Shown here: in pieces, positions 3,082-45,736 of the stretch
Numbering within the stretch: position 1 is the stretch's first letter
How the letters are laid out: each line of letters starts with the position of its first letter
Assembly: GCA_030272155.1 (NCBI GenBank)
Contig: CP126195.1
Coordinates: 5,687,001-5,751,000, forward strand
Length of the DNA stretch: 64,000 nt
Direction of reading: 5' to 3'
Source of the DNA: Tetradesmus obliquus
Taxonomy: Eukaryota; Chlorophyta; Chlorophyceae; Sphaeropleales; Scenedesmaceae
Notes under the pieces: generated by a model
Databases searched by the model: none
Told to the model about the DNA's origin: nothing
What the model saw: the letters and a program-made list of their open reading frames with translations, nothing else
Program-made: the position numbers and the translations under genes

Positions 3082-3623
3082 TTGATTGCTGCTTGAGGCA
3101 ACGTTGACTACTGGTGCTGTCGGGCTTCCCGCTCCGAAAGCAGCTTCAAGCAGGTCGCTCCTCAAAATAATACCTTGATGTGCTAGCAGGTAAGATATTG
3201 GAATATTAGTTTTTCTCAAAGTGTCTACAGCGGACAAGCGAACACTTGGGCGCTGGTTGCAGACGGTGCAGGGGACCCTTAGGAGCACACGTGCCAGTTT
3301 TCCCAGATGCGGCACTCGGACTGGCTGGAAGGCGGCATATTGCTTTTGAAAATGATCTGCCAGATAAACGGTTTAGCCTTCAAGCAGAGTGAAGCATCCT
3401 GCATCAAGGTCCTGAGCCCATGCTTGCTACTAACAGTCACCTACAACAGCAGGCAACTGCTGGCAGCAATCCAGCTCTGCACACACGCTAATGGCGTTTA
3501 CACTTTTTTTTTTCAACCCTTCTGAATCTTACGGAGTTACCTGGTGTGGTCAATGCAGCATGCATGCACAGTGCAAACTGCACTGCCATGTCTAGCGTTG
3601 CCCTCAGAGTCTAGTGAAGTTAA

Positions 3624-19103: not shown

Positions 19104-21156
19104 ATGGCTCAAGCCACGCGCTTGCTGCTGCTTCTGCTGCTGTCCCCTCTGCTGCTGATGCTGATGCATGCGACGGCAGCATCTGCATACAAGCCTCCGC
19201 TGTCCACCTACAGACCCCCGAAATGGCAGAAGGGACACAGCCTGTCCGAGCAGCCCGATCTAGTGTCTCGGTGCACGCTGCTGTGGCGAAACGCAACGCT
19301 GGATCACTTCACATGGGTGCGACTCACAATCACGCCTTATTGCAATCAACGTGCACGAGCTTGCTTACAATCCACGCGTTGCATCGCTGCTGTGCTGCTC
19401 TGCTGCAGCGTGAGCCTGAGAATGGCACCTCCACTTTTCAGCAGCGTGTGTTCATCTGCGATGAGTTCTGGCAGCCAGCTCCCAACAGGGCCCTCGGACC
19501 GATCTTTTTCTACCTGGGCAACGAGGCAGACGTGACTCTGTAAGCACCAGACAGACCAACAGCGACCAAGCAGCTGCAGCGGCACCAGCACCAGCAGCAG
19601 CAGCATGCGCTACCACATGTGGTGTGTCATGACAGCTGCAAAACACCTCAGGACGCATGCTTAGCCGCACCATGCACTGCAACTGATTTGTCTGCTGCCA
19701 CGTGCTGCGTCAGGTACCTGAACCACACCGGCCTTATGTGGGAGAATGCGGCCCACTTTGGGGCCCTGCTGGTCTTTGCCGAGCACAGGTGGGGCGCACA
19801 ATTCTTACACCAAAGCAGCTTGAAGTAGCAGCATCATGTTTTAGGAGCTGAGAGTCAGCGGGGGCAGTTTGCAGGAAATATCTGTATCCTTGCACAGCCC
19901 AGCAAAGCTGCCTGTTCATTACCAAGTTGCAGCAACAGTCCTACAGTGCTCGTGAATTACGGCTGGCAGCACACTGTCGCAACACAATGTTTGTAGGTAT
20001 GCACCTTGCTCATTTAACTCTGTGCTGGTGTGCTGCTTGCCAGGTATTATGGCCAGTCCAAGCCGTGGGGGGCTGACGTGCGCACGCACATGGGCTACCT
20101 CACTGCAGAGCAGGCCCTGGCAGGTGACAGACAGTGTAGATGCAGCAATGTGTTGTGTCTCAGTCATTACGAATTTGAAGTTAAGGCAACAGTGTGGCAT
20201 GGGCTACCTCACCGAAGAGCAGGCCCTGGCAGGTGACAGGCGGTGTAGATGCAGCGATATGATGTGACGTAGACCTTGGTATTTCTGAGCAGTCGACGTG
20301 ACAGTGTGGCATGGGCTACAACACAGCAGAGCAGGCCCTGGCAGGTGCCAGGCGGCACAGCTTCAGCCGTACGGTATCACTCAGACGTTGGTATATCTGA
20401 GCAGGCAGGGCAACCATGTGGCATGGGCCTCACTGCAAAGAAAGCCCTGGCAGGTGACAGGCATCGTTATTGCAGCCGTACGATTTGAACTATACCACCC
20501 CAAATCGATGTCGTTCAGCAGTCAAGGCAACTGTGTGGCATGCGGTACATCTTTTGGATGTGTTGATTCTGGCAGCTACTGCCCTTGCTTGGTCCACACA
20601 GCATGTATGTTAGTGCAGGAGGCGGTGACGTGCATCACAACCCAACAATGCAGACGATACATCTTGCCGCACATGCTTGTCAAGCTGCGATTCTGTTGTC
20701 GCTACTTAGCCATTGCGCTGACTGACATGCGCTGACAAGGATCAGCTGCATGCCTGCTGCTGCTGCTGCCGTTGCTGCTGCTGCTGCCTCAGACTATGCG
20801 GAGGTCATCCAGGAGGTCAAAGCAGCATGGCCTGGCGCACAGCACAGCGCTGTCATCGGCTTTGGGGGCAGGTCCGTGCCACCATCCGGACCGTGCCTGT
20901 GCAAACTTGTGATTGCTTGCTGACCCACGCAACATAATGTGTCTATAACCATGCAGCAGGACACCTGCTGCGACACATGTGGCACATACGGGCTCAAGCA
21001 GCTGCACACGACGGTCAAACTTGATCAGGGAGCAGCGGCAGCAGGGATGTGGCACATGTACTTGCTAAGCTTGCTGCATCACTGCAAATTGCCTGCTTGT
21101 TGCCCACGTGCTATGCTTGCCTTGCATGACACATGTGCTGACGCCGCCACGTCTAC

Positions 21157-21205
<49 letters not shown>

Positions 21206-21452
21206 GCGCTGCTGCTGCTCTTTTGCACCGTCGTGCCCTGCCACTGGTTGCTGTGATAGCTATGGTGAGTGTCCGCTGAAGATAGGGCATTGCTGCAACA
21301 TCTGTCTTGTGCGAACCCTCCTGCTGCTTCCCCAGCAACCATAGTGCTACCAAGCCAAGCAGCAGGTTCACATCAGATACTGTCTGAGCATGCACATGAG
21401 GCAGTTGCAACTGCCCATGTCCTGCTATTTCTGCACCACAACCTTGCCATCC

Positions 21453-21491
<39 letters not shown>

Positions 21492-22691
21492 CGGCATGCT
21501 TGCTGCCTGGATGCGTAGTACCCGCACCTGCTGTGTATGCCATGCTCTTGACAAGCCTTTCTGTCCCTCAACTGTCGCATGCAGACAGCTTCTCATTTGT
21601 GTGTCATGTCTGCTTGCTTGTTCACGTGTTTTGTCTTGCAGGCGGCATGCTGGCTGCCTGGATGCGGCTCAAGTACCCGCACCTGCTGTGTATGCCATGC
21701 TCTTGACAAGCCTTTCTGTCCCTCAACTGTCGCATACAGACAGCTTCTCATTTGTGTGTCATGTCTGCTTGCTTGTTCATGTGTTTTGTCTTGCAGGCGG
21801 CATGCTGGCTGCCTGGATGCGGCTCAAGTACCCGCACCTGCTGTGTATGCCATGCTCTTGACAAGCCTTTCTGTCCCTCAACTGTCGCATACAGACAGCT
21901 TCTCATTTGTGTGTCATGTCTGCTTGCTTCATCATGTGTTTTTTCTTGCAGGTGGCATGCTTGCTGCCTGGATGCGGCTCAAGTACCCGCACCTGCTGGT
22001 TGGCGCCATTGCTGCCTCAGCACCCATCTGGAACTTCTACGGGCAGGTGCGGGGGCTGCTAGTTGTGCAAGGAACCCTGAGGAGCATACATGTTTGCACT
22101 CTTACAAATCAAGCTTCTCTTCATAACTTTGCAACACAGCCGATAGCAATGCAGATTTGCGAAGTGGCGTGTAGATTGCTGCATACTGCTGACACCATAG
22201 CTTGTCTCAGTTGCTGCCGTCGCTGCCGTGTGTGCTCGGGAGCCTCCAGTTGATGAGCTGGCCTTTGCCAAAGGCGTGACGTATGATGCACGATTTGCGC
22301 TTTGTGCATGTGGGCGGTTCACATACAACCCTCTTGCACTTCTTGTTGCTCGGCAGGACCCTCCGTTTGACGAGCTGGCCTTTGCGAAAGGTGTCACGTA
22401 TGACGCAACGCCGGAGGCTGGCGCGGCGCCGGGCTGCGTGCAGACAGTGCGGCGGGCATGGGAGGTGCGACGCCCTGCCTTGTTCAGGGTGTTATTTGTT
22501 TCACACGTGGCAAGATGAGGTGTTGCTCAGGAACAAATATGAAAGCTGGTTGGCTTTGCTGCAGCACTGCTCAGCAATGTACCTGTAAGGCGCCAGCTGC
22601 CCGTGCAAGTTGTATGATGTGTGTTGCCTCAGCATCTGCACTGCAATTTCCAGCACACCAACACGAGACATCACACTGTGCTGTGCATCAA

Positions 22692-22734
<43 letters not shown>

Positions 22735-25700
22735 CTTTTGTGGCTGCAGGTGCTCATGCAGATGGGCGCTTATGCTGGCGGCCGCGCCGACATCGCTGCT
22801 GCCATGCGGCTGTGCCCTGAGACGCGACTCAACAGCAAAGAGGATGTGCTTGCTCTGCGTGAATACTTGGCCAGTGCTTGGTGAGCCTGTTTGCTCCCAG
22901 CCACTGCAGGGACATGATTTTGTTGGTCAACCTTGCTGTGTAACATACGCTGTGGGTTTTTTGGCTGATGTGCGCAGAGACCATCTGCCCATGGGCAGCT
23001 GTCTATACCCCCATCCACCACAACAGCATGATCTTGTTGGTCAATTTTATTGATCATATCACACTGTATAACTCTTCCGCTGTGCTGCTGCGTGCAGGGA
23101 CTACCTGGCCATGGGCAACTTCCTGTGCAACTATCATACACAAGGACATAACTTCTTTGGTCACACTTCTGTATCACATCACGCTGTCTCAATCTTCCGC
23201 TGTGCTGCTGTGGTCAGGGACTATCTGGCCATGGGCAACTTCCCCTACCCCCATCCGCTGCAACAGCATGATCTTGTTGGTCAAACTTGAATCATCATAT
23301 CACACTGTATCACTGTTCCGCTGTGCTGCTGTGTGCAGGGACTATCTTGCCATGGACAACTATGTTTACTCCCATCACTGCAATAACATGATGTTTTCTG
23401 TCAAACATCCTGTAACACCCCATCACGCTGTCACACTCTTCCGCTGTGCTGCTGTGGACAGGGACTATCTGGCCATGGGCAACTTCCCCTACCCCCATCC
23501 GCTGCAACAGCATGATCTTGTTGGTCAAACTTGAATCATCATATCACACTGTATCACTGTTCCGCTGTGCTGCTGTGTGCAGGGACTATCTTGCCATGGG
23601 CAACTATGTTTACTCCCATCACTGCAATAACATGATGTTTTCTGTCAAACATCCTGTAACACCCCATCACGCTGTCACACTCTTCCGCTGTGCTGCTGTG
23701 TGCAGGGACTACCTGGCCATGGGCAACTTCCCCTACCCCCATCCGCTGCAACAGCATGATCTTGTTGGTCAACTTTGTTTATCATATCACACTGTATCAC
23801 TCTTCCGCTGTGCTGCTGTGGTCAGGGACTACCTGGCCATGGGCAACTTCCCTTACCCCTCCTCTTACATGACCAACGGTGAGCCCAGCACACAGCCATT
23901 TGTCGGCCAAAGCACGGATGAGACGATGTCATAGTGCCTTGTATTGTCTGCCAGCCTGTCAGATAACAATGCGCACTTCACTCAACAGCACAAGCAGCTT
24001 GCTGCTGTAGTATGGTGCACTGCAGCGCAAGCAGTCGAATCCTATTGAAAACATCTGCGTGGCCTGCTGTACAGGTGCGGGCGACCTGCCGGCGTACCCT
24101 GTGCGTGTGGCGTGTGAAATCATGGTCAGCAGGGGCACCCTGGACGGCCCAAGACTCATGGAGGGTGAGCTGTTTGTGCTTTATGGTTCAATGCGTGTTA
24201 CGTGGGGTTCGTGTGGCACTCGTAGGTTGATTGCTGAGCAGGGGCACCTCTGACGGGCCATGGTTCATGGAGGGTGAGCCGTTGTAGTATCATATACTGT
24301 GTTGTGCATGTTACGTTCACCATCATGCACAAAACCAGCATATATACAGCCACAAGGAAGCCAAGCATGAGCTGACAGCACTTGCATGAGTTGACAGCAC
24401 ACCCTTGATCGGTGGCCCCTGTCAGAAACAACACTCTCTCATGCTGTATGCACGCCAGGCGCAGCGTGCTGTACAACTTTAGCGGCAAATTGCTCGACTG
24501 GTGCCTGCCCCCATTCCTTTTCGTGTCACAAGCAACCCAAACTTTTCTGTGCTCCCCTCATGCTGCCTGCAGGCCTCGCGCAGGCTGCCGGCGTGCTGTA
24601 CAAATGCAGTGGCAGCCTACCTGACCTGGCTCCTTGCGCCGTGGAAGCAATTTTCCACCCACAACACTTGCCTTTTTTTCCTAATGCTGCCTGCAGACCT
24701 CGCGCAGGCTGCCGGCTTGCTGTACAACTTCAGTGGCAGACTGACTTGCCTGGCGCCTGGCGCTTTTTATACAGAACATGTGCTCAGTACACTGCCGTTT
24801 CGCCCCTCATGCTGCCTGCAGGCCTAAAGCAGGCTGCCGGCGTGCTGTACAAATGCAGTGGCAGCCTACCTGACCTGGCTCCTTGCGCCGTGGAAGCAAT
24901 TTTCCACCCACAAGACTTGCCTTTTTTCCTAATGCTGCCTGCAGACCTCGCGCAGGCTGCCGGCTTGCTGTACAACTTCAGTGGCAGACTGACTTGCCTG
25001 GCACTTTTTATACAGAACATGTGCTCAGTACACTGCCGTTTCGCCCCTCATGCTGCCTGCAGGCCTCGCGCAGGCTGCCGGCGTGCTGTACAAATGCAGT
25101 GGCAGCCTACCTGACCTGGCTCCTTGCGCCGTGGAAGCAATTTTCCACCCACAAGACTTGCCTTTTTTCCTAATGCTGCCTGCAGACCTCGCGCAGGCTG
25201 CCGGCTTGCTGTACAACTTCAGTGGCAGACTGACTTGCCTGGCACTTTTTATACAGAACATGTGCTCAGTACACTGCCGTTTCGCCCCTCATGCTGCCTG
25301 CAGGCCTCGCGCAGGCTGCCGGCGTGCTGTACAAATGCAGTGGCAGCCTACCTGACCTGGCTCCTTGCGCCGTGGAAGCAATTTTCCACCCACAACACTT
25401 GCCTTTTTTTTCCTAATGCTGCCTGCAGACCTCGCGCAGGCTGCCGGCTTGCTGTACAACTTCAATGGCAGACTGACTTGCCTGGCGCTTTTTATACAGA
25501 ACATGTGCTCAGTACACTGCCGTTTCGCCCCTCATGCTGCCTGCAGGCCTAAAGCAGGCTGCTGGCGTGCTGTACAAGTGTAGTGGCAGCCTGCCCAATC
25601 TGGCTCATTGCGCCGTTGAAGCAATTGTCCGCCCACAACACTTGCCTTTTCTCCTAATGCTGCCTGCAGGCCTCGCGCAGGCTGCTGGTGTACCGTACAA

Positions 25701-28619
25701 CTTCAGTGGCAGCCTGCCCTGCCTGGCGCCTTAGCAAGAACTGTCTGCTTACAAAATCTGCATTTTTCTTGATTAATGCTGCCTGCAGGCCTGGCACAGG
25801 CTGCTGGCGTGCTGTATAATTTCAGTGGCTGCCTGCCCTGCCTGGCCCCTAGTACTTCAAGAACAGTCTGCTTACAACACTGCCGTTTGCCCCTCATGCT
25901 GCCTGCAGGTGTGGCGCAGGCTGCTGGTGTACTGTACAACTGCAGCGGCAGCCTGCCTTAATTGGTGCCTGTCCCCGTTGTCTTTTATATCACAACCAAC
26001 CCAAACATCTCACTCCTCCCCTCAACTGCCTGCAGGTCTGGCACAGGCTGCTGGCGTGCTTTATAACTTCAGTGGCAGCCTGCCCTGCCTGGCGCCTGGC
26101 TCTGGCCCCAGCCCTGAGTCTGACGAGGACGCTAATTTTTGGGACTACCAGTGGTGCACTGAGATGGTCATGCCTGCCAGCAAGGACGGCGGTGAGTGAA
26201 TTTGGGCCAAGGTTGGTTGCACTTGTCACCTGCTACAGCATGTTCTTTGCTTTGGATTTAGACGCTGCCTGGAAGTCGACTGTGGCAGCAGAATCTGCAC
26301 ATGTGTGTGCGGCGGCCTGCCACCAATACATAACTGATGTAGCTCCAGTGTGGGCCCCAGCCCTGAGTCTGACGAGGACGCTAATTTTTGGGACTACCAG
26401 TGGTGCACTGAGATGGTCATGCAAGCCAGCAAGGATGGCGGTGAGTAGGCGTGCGATGATGGCGGTGTGCAGCTGCCGCCTGTTGCAGCGTGTTCTTTGC
26501 AGCACAGCAGATGCCTGCCTGGCAATAGATCATTAGAGGACACTGCTCTCGGCGCCAACCAACACCTGCCCTACTTGCGTTCCTGCCGGCGCAGTGAGCG
26601 ACATGTTCTACAAAGACACCCTCAAGTTCAGCGCAATGCTACTGAGCTGCCAATGTGACCTCAACAAATCCATGTGCCAATCACATTTTGTGCCAAATGC
26701 CGTCTGCTGCAGTGAGTGACATGTTCTACAAAGACACCTTCAATTTCAGCGCTGCTGTCGAGAACTGCAAGCGCACCTGGGGCGTGGCGCCACGCTCAAA
26801 GTCCTGGCCAGTCACACAGGTCAGCAGGGCAGCAGCAGCAGCAGCAGCAGCAGCAGCGCAGAGTTTCTGGTTCATATACACCAGTCAACAGCTGCGGCGG
26901 TCTGTTGACCGAGGGATGGCGTGCAAATGCATGGCAGGGTGTGTTCAGGTTGCACGTCAATGACACATACAGCACTTGTTAACGGCAGAGCAGCATACAA
27001 AACATAGACATTCGCAGCGCTGCACGCGTGTAGTGCTGGCGTTTTGACATTGAATAATGGCATTGTCCGTGCTGCCATGACGATCGCTGCTGCTGCCGCT
27101 CCCCTGCTCGCTGCAGCTGGCGCTCCCCAGCCCGCTGCAGCTGCTGGATTTGCCCTGCTACATTGCTGAAACCGCTGCAACTGCTGCGCTGCTGCACTGC
27201 TGGCTGCTGATGATGACAATGCTGCTGCTGCTGCAGTGGGGTGGCCGTAACATCGCTGCCGGCAGCAACATTGTGTTCAGCAACGGCCTGCTTGACCCCT
27301 GGCATGGTGGGGGCGTCATGGATGATGTCAGCAAAAGCCTGGTGGCTGTGGTCATTCCTGAGGTGAGGATGTCAGCTACTTTCAAATGCTGGTTGTGTCT
27401 GGCTTTACATGGTGCAGAACATGGGTTGCATGGAATTGGAACCAACAGCAGCTTGGTGGTGTCTGTTCTCCTGATGTGGGGTGTTGTTAAGCAGCACAGC
27501 AGCTTGTATGATGCCAGCACAGTCTGGACCCCTGGCATGGCTGGGGTGTGATGGATGACGTCAGCAAGAGCCTGGTGGCTGTTGTTATTCCAGAGGTGAG
27601 AATCCTGCCATGTTTTGAGTGTTCAGATGATGTGGTGTGATGAAGTGCATGCGTAGTTATGCATTGCATCAATGGCTTGACCCCTGGCATGGCGGGGGCG
27701 TCATGGAGGACGCGAGCAAGAGCCTGGTGGCTGTTGTAATTCCAGAGGTAGGGCTTGCAGCCATTCGTTACTAGTGCTTGTGGTATGGCTACCACTACAT
27801 GGCAGGAGGCTGTTGCTGTTGCGTTCTGGCTGAATCAAGGTGACTCTGGCAGCACAGCAGCTTTCTTCCTGTCATCGGGCTGACTTTGTCATTGTCATAA
27901 AGGATCGCACGTGAAATTGCCGGATCACAGCTTTAAAAACTCTGTCAAACAGTCGCAGCACAGTATGCACAGCATGTACAGCAAGCACCTTGACTGTGCA
28001 GTCTGTTTAGTGCAAGTTCACACCATGCACACATTGCCAGAGCACTGTCAGGGGTCAACCGATGCCGCCACTACGATTGCTGCTGCTGCTGCTGCTGCTG
28101 GCATGCCTGCAGGGAGCACACCACTTGGACCTGATGTTCAGCCACCCCCTGGACCCTCCCTTAGTGCTGGCTGCTTGTCATACTGCTGCTGCTGCTGCTG
28201 CTGCTACTACAACATGCCTGCAGGGCGCCCACCACCTTGACTTGATGTTCAGCCACCCCCTGGACCCTCCCTCAGTGCTGGCAGCACGCAGAACACAGCT
28301 GCGCCACATCAAGCACTGGATCAAGCAAGCGGCCCGAAGGCACAGCGAGCAGCAGCAGCGGCTGCAGTGGTGGCGGCAGCAGCAGCCAGGATATGAGGCA
28401 GATGAGGAGGTGGAGGAGGATGCTCAGCAGCAGCAGCCGCAGCAGCAGCAGCAGCAGTTGCAGCGGCCTGCTGATTATGCAGGTATGGTTTCTGCAAGCT
28501 GGCAGAGTGTGTGGATGAAGTGGTGGCCGCAATGGCTGCAGCAGCAGCAGCAGCAGCAGCAGCAGTTGTTCGGTCGCCGAGCAGGCAGCAGATCCAGGCT
28601 GACAGCACCAGCAGCGTGA
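19104..28619 (+). CDS. Serine carboxypeptidase S28 (prolyl carboxypeptidase/DPP II type)
   Basis: Lysosomal or secreted exopeptidase family cleaving next to Pro. Exons: 19104-19316, 19409-19539, 19714-19788, 20044-20123, 20793-20871, 21260-21264, 21952-22046, 22357-22464, 22750-22880, 23826-23878, 24075-24164, 26036-26191, 26713-26819, 27237-27362, 28224-28619; 1845 nt, 614 residues. The ATG at 19104 (context GCCATGG) gives a Leu-rich signal peptide. Triad: Ser193 in GGSYGGMLAAW, Asp461 in SNGLLDPW, His486/487 in GAHHLDL. Other family motifs: FFYLGNEADV, AEHRYYGQS, LVGAIAASAPIW, RTWG. The last exon adds a Gln-rich tail of about 100 residues. Introns of at least eight exons carry junction copies, which is why the gene spans 9.5 kb. 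Exon 6 is only 5 nt. Confidence 0.93.
20124..20560 (+). repeat. Tail copies of S28 exon 4 with donor
   Basis: The exon 4 end (encoding MGYLTAEQALAG, followed by GTGACAG or a similar donor) recurs at about 20198-20233, 20309-20344 and 20421-20455, with a weaker trace near 20530. The copies are increasingly degraded away from the real exon. Confidence 0.88.
21260..21264 (+). other. 5-nt microexon at the S28 catalytic serine
   Basis: CTATG lies between ...GATAG and GTGAGT. Exon 5 ends GGG GGC AG and exon 7 begins GT GGC ATG, so the join reads G-G-S-Y-G-G-M. Without these 5 nt the frame breaks and the nucleophile motif is lost; with them the full 1845-nt model is in frame. No other occurrence of the needed sequence with splice sites was seen in the 1080-bp interval. 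Confidence 0.85.
21487..21951 (+). repeat. Head copies of S28 exon 7
   Basis: Three extra copies of about 154 bp carry an acceptor and the exon 7 head (GGMLAAWMRLKYPHLL), starting near 21490, 21643 and 21798. Only the fourth, at 21952, continues to VGAIAASAPIW and a donor. Confidence 0.92.
23098..23825 (+). repeat. Six extra copies of the S28 exon 10 head
   Basis: Exon 10 heads (DYLAMGNFPYP) with acceptor start at 23098, 23218, 23339, 23462, 23583 and 23706, with a regular spacing of 120-123 bp. The real exon at 23826 is the only one followed by SSYMTN and a donor. Units two apart resemble each other most, suggesting later two-unit duplication. Confidence 0.93.
24446..26035 (+). repeat. Twelve extra copies of the S28 exon 12 head
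   Basis: Acceptor plus exon head (encoding LAQAAGVLYNFSGSL) start at 24573, 24697, 24822, 24945, 25063, 25186, 25304, 25429, 25547, 25670, 25789 and 25909, plus a degenerate one near 24456. Spacing is 118-127 bp. In the middle, two unit types alternate (GVLYKCSGSLPDL and GLLYNFSGRLTCL), giving a dimeric higher-order period of about 240 bp. The complete exon is at 26036. Confidence 0.93.
26354..26445 (+). repeat. Tail copy of S28 exon 12
   Basis: About 90 bp repeat the end of exon 12 (SPESDEDANFWDYQWCTEM and following residues) with a GTGAGT donor, downstream of the real exon. It is nearly identical and so recent. Confidence 0.92.
27527..27752 (+). repeat. Tail copies of S28 exon 14
   Basis: Two copies of the exon 14 end (PWHGGG...SLVAVVIPE) with GTGAG or GTAGG donors, at about 27527-27594 and 27676-27749, downstream of the real exon. 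Confidence 0.9.
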
Positions 28620-29244
28620 GCTTGCAGCTTTAGGGTCAGCCACCTACTTGTGCCCTGGCATTATCATGCCGCATGTAATGCGCAGCGCAGTACATGCAGC
28701 AGTGACAGCATGGCTTGAGATCTGTAGCTGTCACTGGATGCTGCTTGCACATTGCATGAATGCCAGGTGACAAACAAAGCAGGAGGCACTCCTGGTGGCG
28801 CCTGACAAGTCATTTCTGGCGTTCTGGCGGTGCCCTGGTGATGGCAGCAGCCTGTGTTTGTGGGCTGTTGTCGTATGTGCAGCTTTGCTCGGATGAAACG
28901 CAGCCACTGTTGATATGTTCGTCATTGCGGGTGCTTTCCTTTCTCAATGGCAGTGTAAACAAGCGGCCATGCATGTGCTACAGTTCTTTGTGCTGAGTGA
29001 CACCAGGGCTCCTTTGCAGGACAGCGCTGCATTCACGTACACAATTTAAAAAAGCTTGCAGGAGTTTGGTTTTTAGCGACGACAGCTGTGGGGAGTTGCG
29101 TTGTGGCAGCACTGTTGCTGCGACAAGAGGCTAGGTCTTTTGTTCTAGGGTTGTTGGGTGCGCAGCACTGCTAGCTAAGTCGAGATCGCATCGCATTCAA
29201 CTTTGAACTTTGAAACAATTGAAACCTACGACGCGCCGAACTTA
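28620..29244. other. Intergenic between S28 peptidase and membrane protein
   Basis: Contains the peptidase 3' UTR and the presumed promoter of the next gene. A 78-codon ORF at 28760-28996 has no recognised feature and no support. Confidence 0.5.
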
Positions 29245-43738: not shown

Positions 43739-45736
43739 GTGGTTGGACACTTGTTGATCTGCTGCGGTTGGCAGCAGGCGCCTTGGCTGCTGCTGCTGCT
43801 GCTGCTGCTGCATCAAGGTGCATTAGCTCCGGTTCATCAGGGCCAGGATGCTGCTGATGTGGCCGCTGTTTGACATGTGGCTGGCTGGATGCTGCTGCTG
43901 CTGCTGCTGCTGCAGACGACGGCTGCCGTTTCGCTATCGGAGGCTTGTTTGCGGCTCGAGCTGAACTGGCGGTTGCTGCTGCAGCTGCTGCTGTCGACTG
44001 CTGCAAGTCCGGCGGCCGGCCCAGGTCAGGATGCTGCTGCTGCTGCTGCTGCTGTTGTTGCTGCACTCCAGGGTGCTGCTGCTGCTGCCATGGTTGCTGC
44101 TGTTCTTGGTGTTGCTTCCTGGCAATGCAGAGGTGCGGGTGGTGCACAAGCACCACATCATCAAAGTAATCTTCACAGTGAACATCATCCCCAGCCATTT
44201 CTTCCGGGTCATCTTCACAGTGTGAACTCCGGCCCATGTCTCCGTTGGCAGCAGCAGCAGCACCAACTGCAGCTTCGCTGGCAAACCTGCTACTACCCCG
44301 GGCTGGCTGCTGGGCTGCTGCTGATGCTGCTGCTGCTGCTGTGGTTTCCCCGCACTGGCTACCAAACCCATCCTGTGACTGCTGCCACTGCTGCTGCTGC
44401 CACTGCTGCTGCTGCTGGCTGCCTGGGCGTGCTGCTGCCTGTGACTGCTGCGTCGGCGGCTGCTGTGACGCGACTGCTGCAGTGGCGGCTGGTCGCTGCT
44501 GCTGCTGCTGCTGCTGCTGGCTTGGTGCTGCCTCAGTGAGCCAAGTGACAGCATCTATAACAGAGCCCCCACAGCACTGCAGAGCCTGCAGGTGCAGCAG
44601 CAACCATCATGTGATTCAAGAGGGACTGCAAACAGGCAGAGGCCGCATGTACGGCACAGAGGCAACATTTCAGCAGCAGCAGGTGATACTTTGCGGCAAT
44701 ACACAGCAGCACCCTGCAAGCATGGCTGACTCTGCTGAACAGCTCTGACTCCGCGCCTCAGCAAGCATCACTACTGCACAACGCTGACCAGCTTCTGCCT
44801 ACCCTATGCACTCATAAACTGCGTCCTGCAAGAGCTGCAACGCATTTCGTTCAAAACGACGTGTGCTGAGCCGTGCCAGTTAGGCCTGTGCAGGATGTGT
44901 ACCCTGCAGCCGCCTCACCTCCAGGGCCTGCTGCTGCTTGAAGCCCATCGCCACCAGCACCTCCACCTCAGCAGGGTCAAACTCAGCAGCAGCAGCAGCA
45001 GCAGAAGCAGCACCAGCAGCAGCAGAGGCCCCGCCTGCTGCTGCTGCAGCTGCTTCCGCTGTGCCTTGCTGCTGCCACCACTCGTCATCATCCAGCTGAT
45101 CACCACTGCCTTGACGGGTGCTACTGCTGCGCCGCCTGCGCTTGCCTCTACTGCTGGTGCTTCCTGTTGCTGCTGCTGCTGCTGCCTCTGCATGCTGGTA
45201 AAGCCCGTCCTCATCATCAGCAGCAGCAGGGTCTTGCTGGTAGCTGCTGCTCGCCCAGAAGCCATCTCCTGCAAGGCACGGATCATCGTCACCTGCCCAG
45301 TAGCAGCCACCAGCAAAACCACCATCTCCAGCAGCAGCAGCAGCAGCAGCAGCAGGTGATTTTGTCTGCCACTGTGTGGTTGCTGCAGGAGTGCCTGCCA
45401 CATGCACACCCAGGCTAGCAGCAGCAGCGGCAGCAGCATCTGCGGCAGCCACTGCTGCTGCGACTGTTGCGTCAATGCTGACGCCCTGCGAGCTTTGGCG
45501 GCCGCCCAAACTGCCGCCGCTGCCTGCGTAGTAGAACTCGGCACTTGTGCTGCCTACATTGCGCCTGCTGCTGCCGCTGCCGCCAGTGTTGAATCCAGCT
45601 GCTGTTGCATCTGTAGCTGCGGCACAAGTGTGGCCGCTACCAGCAGCAGCAGCAGCTGCAGCAGGTGCCTTCGCTCGTCTCTGCTTCTTGGCTGCTGGGG
45701 CTGCTGCTGCTGGCTCTACATTGGCTGCTGCTGGAC

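Follow-up and report, generated by a model that had tools for sequence, protein, structure and literature searches.

In Chlamydomonas reinhardtii, 337 microexons of 1–15 nt have been reported (Yu et al. 2022, PMC8831610). The sequence-only reading of the S28 peptidase gene described here regarded its 5-nt exon as close to the smallest exons known; this has to be corrected, because exons of 1 nt were validated in plants (PMC8831610), and the rarity that it implied is overstated, exons of 1–15 nt being well documented in plants and Chlamydomonas in the available part of the same paper. According to this part, the introns flanking plant microexons are apparently removed in turn, more often the downstream one first, with the upstream one detained. 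The 5-nt microexon of rice Os08t0562700-01x is similar to the S28 one in size and in having been missed by annotation, and it was validated by RT-PCR; it belongs, however, to a different gene and adjoins a 12-nt microexon (PMC8831610, available text). The 4-bp microexon of MPC1, the mitochondrial pyruvate carrier, is constitutive and, like the S28 one, has a size that is not a multiple of three, but it is found in a different gene and was studied with minigenes (PMC9929638, available text). The main text of PMC8831610 has no mention of 'carboxypeptidase', and of its 4 occurrences of 'peptidase' the one in the available text concerns Peptidase_M1; the available portion of PMC12409088 mentions neither algae nor Scenedesmus nor Chlamydomonas. 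The literature search gave no paper linking a microexon with an active-site catalytic serine or with prolylcarboxypeptidase.

The gene considered here is located in a stretch of 64,000 nt of Tetradesmus obliquus DNA (contig CP126195.1, positions 5,687,001 to 5,751,000), which is called the window below. P0001 denotes the public T. obliquus protein OEZ85_003168, the closest of the listed proteins, identical with the predicted product at 527 of the 536 aligned positions (98%). A slash marks a splice junction. The features are as follows:

19104..28619, + strand: S28 peptidase (Pro-X carboxypeptidase-type) gene, hand-built model with 15 exons, ATG to stop, 614 aa
20793..20871, + strand: exon 5, ending GGC TTT GGG GGC AG in phase 2, donor GTCCGT, residues identical to P0001 up to the boundary
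20872..21259, + strand: intron 5, 388 nt, with a (CTG)n tract inside and the 3′ end GATAG (21255-21259)
21260..21264, + strand: microexon 6, CTATG, giving the last base of the Ser codon, the Tyr codon and the first base of the Gly codon
21265..21951, + strand: intron 6, 687 nt, donor GTGAGT (21265-21270)
21488..21998, + strand: 155-bp tandem repeat, 3.3 copies, in intron 6 and reaching into exon 7
21585..21598, + strand: 14-mer ACAGCTTCTCATTT, copy 1 of 3 (copies also at 21740-21753 and 21895-21908), judged to be a pseudo-exon
21952..22046, + strand: exon 7, preceded by ...TTTTTTCTTGCAG and opening GT GGC ATG CTT

The 15 exons were selected manually, guided by homology and splice sites, and every modelled intron is bounded by GT...AG. 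Joined together, they form an open reading frame of 614 aa ending at 28619. The 3′ end of the model is uncertain: when 28482 is joined to 28686-28705, 16 exons and 575 aa are obtained with the C-terminus AQYMQQ, as in P0001. The last intron fitting P0001 is 28483-28685, where the manual model instead reads on to 28619.

The first 550 aa of the spliced product were used in the profile and structure comparisons. The Peptidase_S28 profile (PF05577) matches residues 65-506 with E 1e-76 and 259 bits against a curated cut-off of 25, which places the product in family S28. The structure 3n2z of PDB, which we take to be human lysosomal Pro-X carboxypeptidase, was aligned with query residues 60-517 (E 3e-117), and 4ebb, presumably human DPP2, with residues 65-527 (E 5.6e-98). 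When the microexon is included, the motifs GGSYGGM, DPW and GAHH, containing Ser, Asp and His, align to both structures, and the product has the set of motifs characteristic of S28, namely Ser in GGSYGG together with the Asp and His motifs; we assume that these three residues are the catalytic ones. The algal protein differs from both human ones in a long glutamine-rich C-terminus. The gene product may be predicted to be an active Pro-X-type peptidase.

The end of exon 5, the five nucleotides CTATG with GATAG before and GTGAGT after them, and the start of exon 7 are all present where the sequence-only reading had placed them. Its further claim, that the Ser codon is split as AG/C and that CTATG completes the motif GGSYGGM, is borne out by the joined reading frame: exon 5, CTATG and exon 7 together keep the frame open and form this motif, the predicted spliced sequence being ...GGCAGCTATGGTGGC.... 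Omission of CTATG leads to a frameshift with a stop 36 residues past GFGG. Hence, as expected of a coding microexon, the segment is bounded by splice sites and is in frame with both neighbours (GATAG/CTATG/GTGAGT), its acceptor being weak. Single AG...GT-bounded inserts of up to 200 nt with a length of 2 mod 3 were scanned in the 1,080-nt gap with the ends of exons 5 and 7 fixed, and 21260-21264 alone restored G-x-S-[YFWH]-G-G-M. The earlier statement that only CTATG restores both motif and frame is thus right for the motif among inserts of up to 200 nt and wrong for the frame alone, for which, for example, a 14-nt insert suffices. Six in-frame exons ending at 21264 were tested; the five longer ones, starting at 20957, 20960, 20999, 21002 and 21029, all hold stops and were rejected, CTATG being the sole stop-free option.

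In the first protein search, scoring was limited to the 7,974 candidates with the most words in common; of these 3,684 passed, 120 being listed; GGSYGG was found in 119 of these, the exception being P0001 itself. The second search gave 461 passing proteins, 120 of them listed and 119 of the listed ones with GGSYGG (P0213 is without it). In the third, 79 proteins were listed and 74 new ids counted, 73 with the motif (P0276 is without it). P0013 and P0121, about 75% identical and apparently transcript-derived by source name, are among the proteins with GGSYGG, and the 22-residue stretch around the motif in both speaks for the microexon. The C-terminus of P0121, an apparently transcript-derived protein from a relative, is ...MPASRDGGENTEQ, which would be consistent with retention of the intron following exon 12. 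Inclusion of the microexon in the mature mRNA we infer from the sequence, because no protein resembling a same-species transcript is present among the listed results of the three protein searches.

S28 matches were retrieved from the same genome (104.66 Mb, 17 contigs), giving the paralogs L011, L012, L013, L014 and L015, with which the gene structure was compared. In L011 and L012 (GGATCGTACG/GTGAGC) as well as in L013 (GGCAGCTATG/GTGAGC), an ordinary exon closes with a contiguous GGSYG, and the 12-mer AGCTATGGTGAG is common to L013 and the window gene. With junctions placed by eye, the next exon opens GT GG. in L011 and L013, giving GGSYGG, and CT GGC in L012, giving GGSYAG. At L012:3191, an acceptor before 3558 would give GGSYAGM, not GGSYGGM. 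In L014, a GGSA-type sequence was seen by eye ahead of GTGAGT on the opposite strand, and L015 has a contiguous GGSYGGML without an intron at the site. The position of intron 6, in phase 1 after SYG, is common to L011, L012 and L013. The AG/C intron (intron 5) is absent from L011, L012, L013 and L015, the window gene being the only one in which it was observed.

A gain of intron 5 may be proposed because the donor position is shared with paralogs and the AG/C intron is unique to the window gene. The ancestral exon would have had the same end as L013, ...GGCAGCTATG/GT, and its final 5 nt would have been severed when an intron was later inserted between AG and CTATG. Intron loss in the paralogs may be an alternative to gain; the simplest reading is probably that an older intron was already in place and a new one arose 5 nt upstream of it. 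An origin of intron 5 from an introner family or by tandem duplication is unsupported: the first 286 nt of the intron had only a self-match in the genome, in a search that leaves simple repeats and highly frequent words out of account, and the region 20780-21300 showed no repeat of at least 12 nt, either direct or inverted. The exon 7 pattern, a long shot for finding relatives' DNA, gave 0 matches in bacterial and archaeal genomes. The paralogs with the counterpart of these codons on a normal exon suggest that one intron gain just upstream of an existing intron may create a microexon.

The strength of splice sites was estimated using a matrix derived from 12 donor and 12 acceptor sites of the same hand-built gene, with the introns flanking the microexon excluded, so that all scores from this small matrix are rough. 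The microexon donor 21264 scored 7.49 and took rank 1 of 70 GT sites. The microexon acceptor scored -0.12 (rank 13 of 41 AG sites), the top score belonging to the exon 7 acceptor 21952. This microexon acceptor is TAG, CAG being present in all the other 13 modelled acceptors. It is preceded by 188 nt without AG, the second longest such run among 4,605 AG sites on the + strand of the window; the CTG repeat at 21158-21219 inside it accounts for part of the run, because a CTG tract by itself contains no AG. The longest AG-free run on this strand, 208 nt, ends at 44483 and is the only one of at least 200 nt. CTG triplets are also frequent (11 to 14 per 80 nt) ahead of exons 5, 9, 14 and 15.

In the most likely mechanism, the microexon would be too short for simultaneous binding of both its splice sites, so its introns would be removed successively. 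Intron 6 (21265-21951), with its strong GTGAGT donor, may go out first, after which CTATG would form the start of an exon of ordinary size, 100 nt. Intron 5 would then be removed with the help of the weaker TAG acceptor, the first AG past the long AG-free CTG-rich tract. Such a downstream-first order would fit the combination of a strong donor and a weak acceptor. Skipping of the microexon would truncate the protein. If the microexon donor were joined to the decoy acceptor 21642 or 21797 without further splicing, a stop would follow after ...KYPHLLCMPCS, and with the decoy 21491, also without further splicing, the altered frame would run to a stop at 21861. The gene offers a clean test case for studying how the spliceosome handles an exon with splice sites 5 nt apart.

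The decoys belong to three partial copies, at 21491, 21642 and 21797 in the 155-bp repeat, of the acceptor and beginning of exon 7, and precede the true one at 21952. Between 19000 and 28700, about 30 partial copies of 9 of the 14 tested exons (4, 7, 8, 10, 11, 12, 13, 14 and 15) are situated in neighbouring introns, 29 of them spanning one splice junction; the number was obtained from 46 rows by subtracting 3 exon 1 and 13 exon 15 rows in CTG-/CAG-type simple repeats. In L012, the S28 paralog on C6, an acceptor and exon start are doubled at 3445 and 3558 (CTGGCATGTTGGCC twice) behind the SYG intron, so that the window gene is not alone in showing such decoys. In our opinion, the spread of decoy exon starts and ends through a single intact gene may be of greater interest than the microexon.

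If the 14-mer (21585, 21740 or 21895) were the real exon, the product would lack the catalytic serine (GGRQLLICGML), and the public protein points in this direction: P0001 reads GFGGRQLLICGMLAAW, RQLLIC replacing the SYG region with the catalytic serine absent, it shares the end of exon 5 and the start of exon 7 with the manual model, and exon 5, the 14-mer and exon 7 joined together translate to its RQLLIC peptide. The 14-mer is also flanked by AG and GT, and a stretch rich in pyrimidines lies upstream of it. Its donor, however, scores -0.07 against 7.49 for 21264, it is present in three identical copies inside the 155-bp repeat, and its use breaks a motif that all the listed homologues except P0001 retain (119 of 120), the Asp and His motifs remaining; the acceptors, -0.99 to 1.26 against -0.12 for the microexon, do not separate the two. 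Moreover, microexons of 1–15 nt are often missed by annotation, according to the available text of PMC8831610. It is very unlikely that the 14-mer is the true exon, and RQLLIC in OEZ85_003168 is apparently an annotation artefact derived from a 14-nt pseudo-exon. A public gene model can thus lose the catalytic residue of an enzyme through one missed 5-nt exon, and the S28 example, itself well supported, yields a useful correction to such a model. The 5-nt and the 14-nt segments singly restore the frame, and both together do not. That they are alternative microexons, the choice being influenced by the copy number of the intron 6 repeat, seems quite unlikely; if true, this could let the gene alternate between a product with peptidase activity (SYG) and one that is catalytically dead (RQLLIC).

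The roughly 30 partial exon copies in introns and the weak microexon acceptor could be signs of a decaying gene with duplicating exon fragments, in which CTATG would be a relic no longer correctly spliced. This is highly improbable for a gene that retains the three catalytic motifs and has no stop across its joined model exons, and which is matched at 527 of 536 aligned positions by a protein from another contig record. It might also be supposed that CTATG matches by chance, the Ser-Tyr codons coming from an exon with other than AG/GT borders or being lost by an assembly error in exon 5, as the insert enumeration covered AG/GT-bounded exons and the looser test, in which every microexon that restores the motif and has at most 60 nt was counted, succeeded in 23 of 1,000 shuffles. 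When the 1,080-nt gap was shuffled 20,000 times with its dinucleotides preserved, however, the exact form AG/CTAYG/GT appeared in 70 shuffles (0.35%) and in none of the 20,000 when a GTRAG donor was required, and the microexon donor position matches three paralogs. An assembly error would have to be shared, since P0001, from a separate contig record (6,724,026 against 6,747,500 bases), is also without SYG. Chance or misassembly is therefore hardly credible.

Summarizing these data, it may be concluded with high confidence that CTATG is a genuine coding microexon, which would be included as a rule, of a putatively active S28 gene of the Pro-X carboxypeptidase type. The evidence supports the 5-nt microexon as the only arrangement found that yields an intact S28 peptidase. 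The DNA sequence confirms the observation, and the overall finding is very probably correct.

The 5-nt microexon of the S28 gene is a new example of the tiny exons already known in algae and plants. It differs from the plant and green-algal set of PMC8831610 in that its inclusion is deduced from sequence only. In the available text of this paper, the plant and green-algal microexons are, like the S28 one, tiny, internal and coding, have a length that is not a multiple of three and were missed by annotation. Both are required for the reading frame and for a protein motif, and the strong donor and weak acceptor of the S28 microexon agree with the tendency to upstream-intron detention described in the same text.
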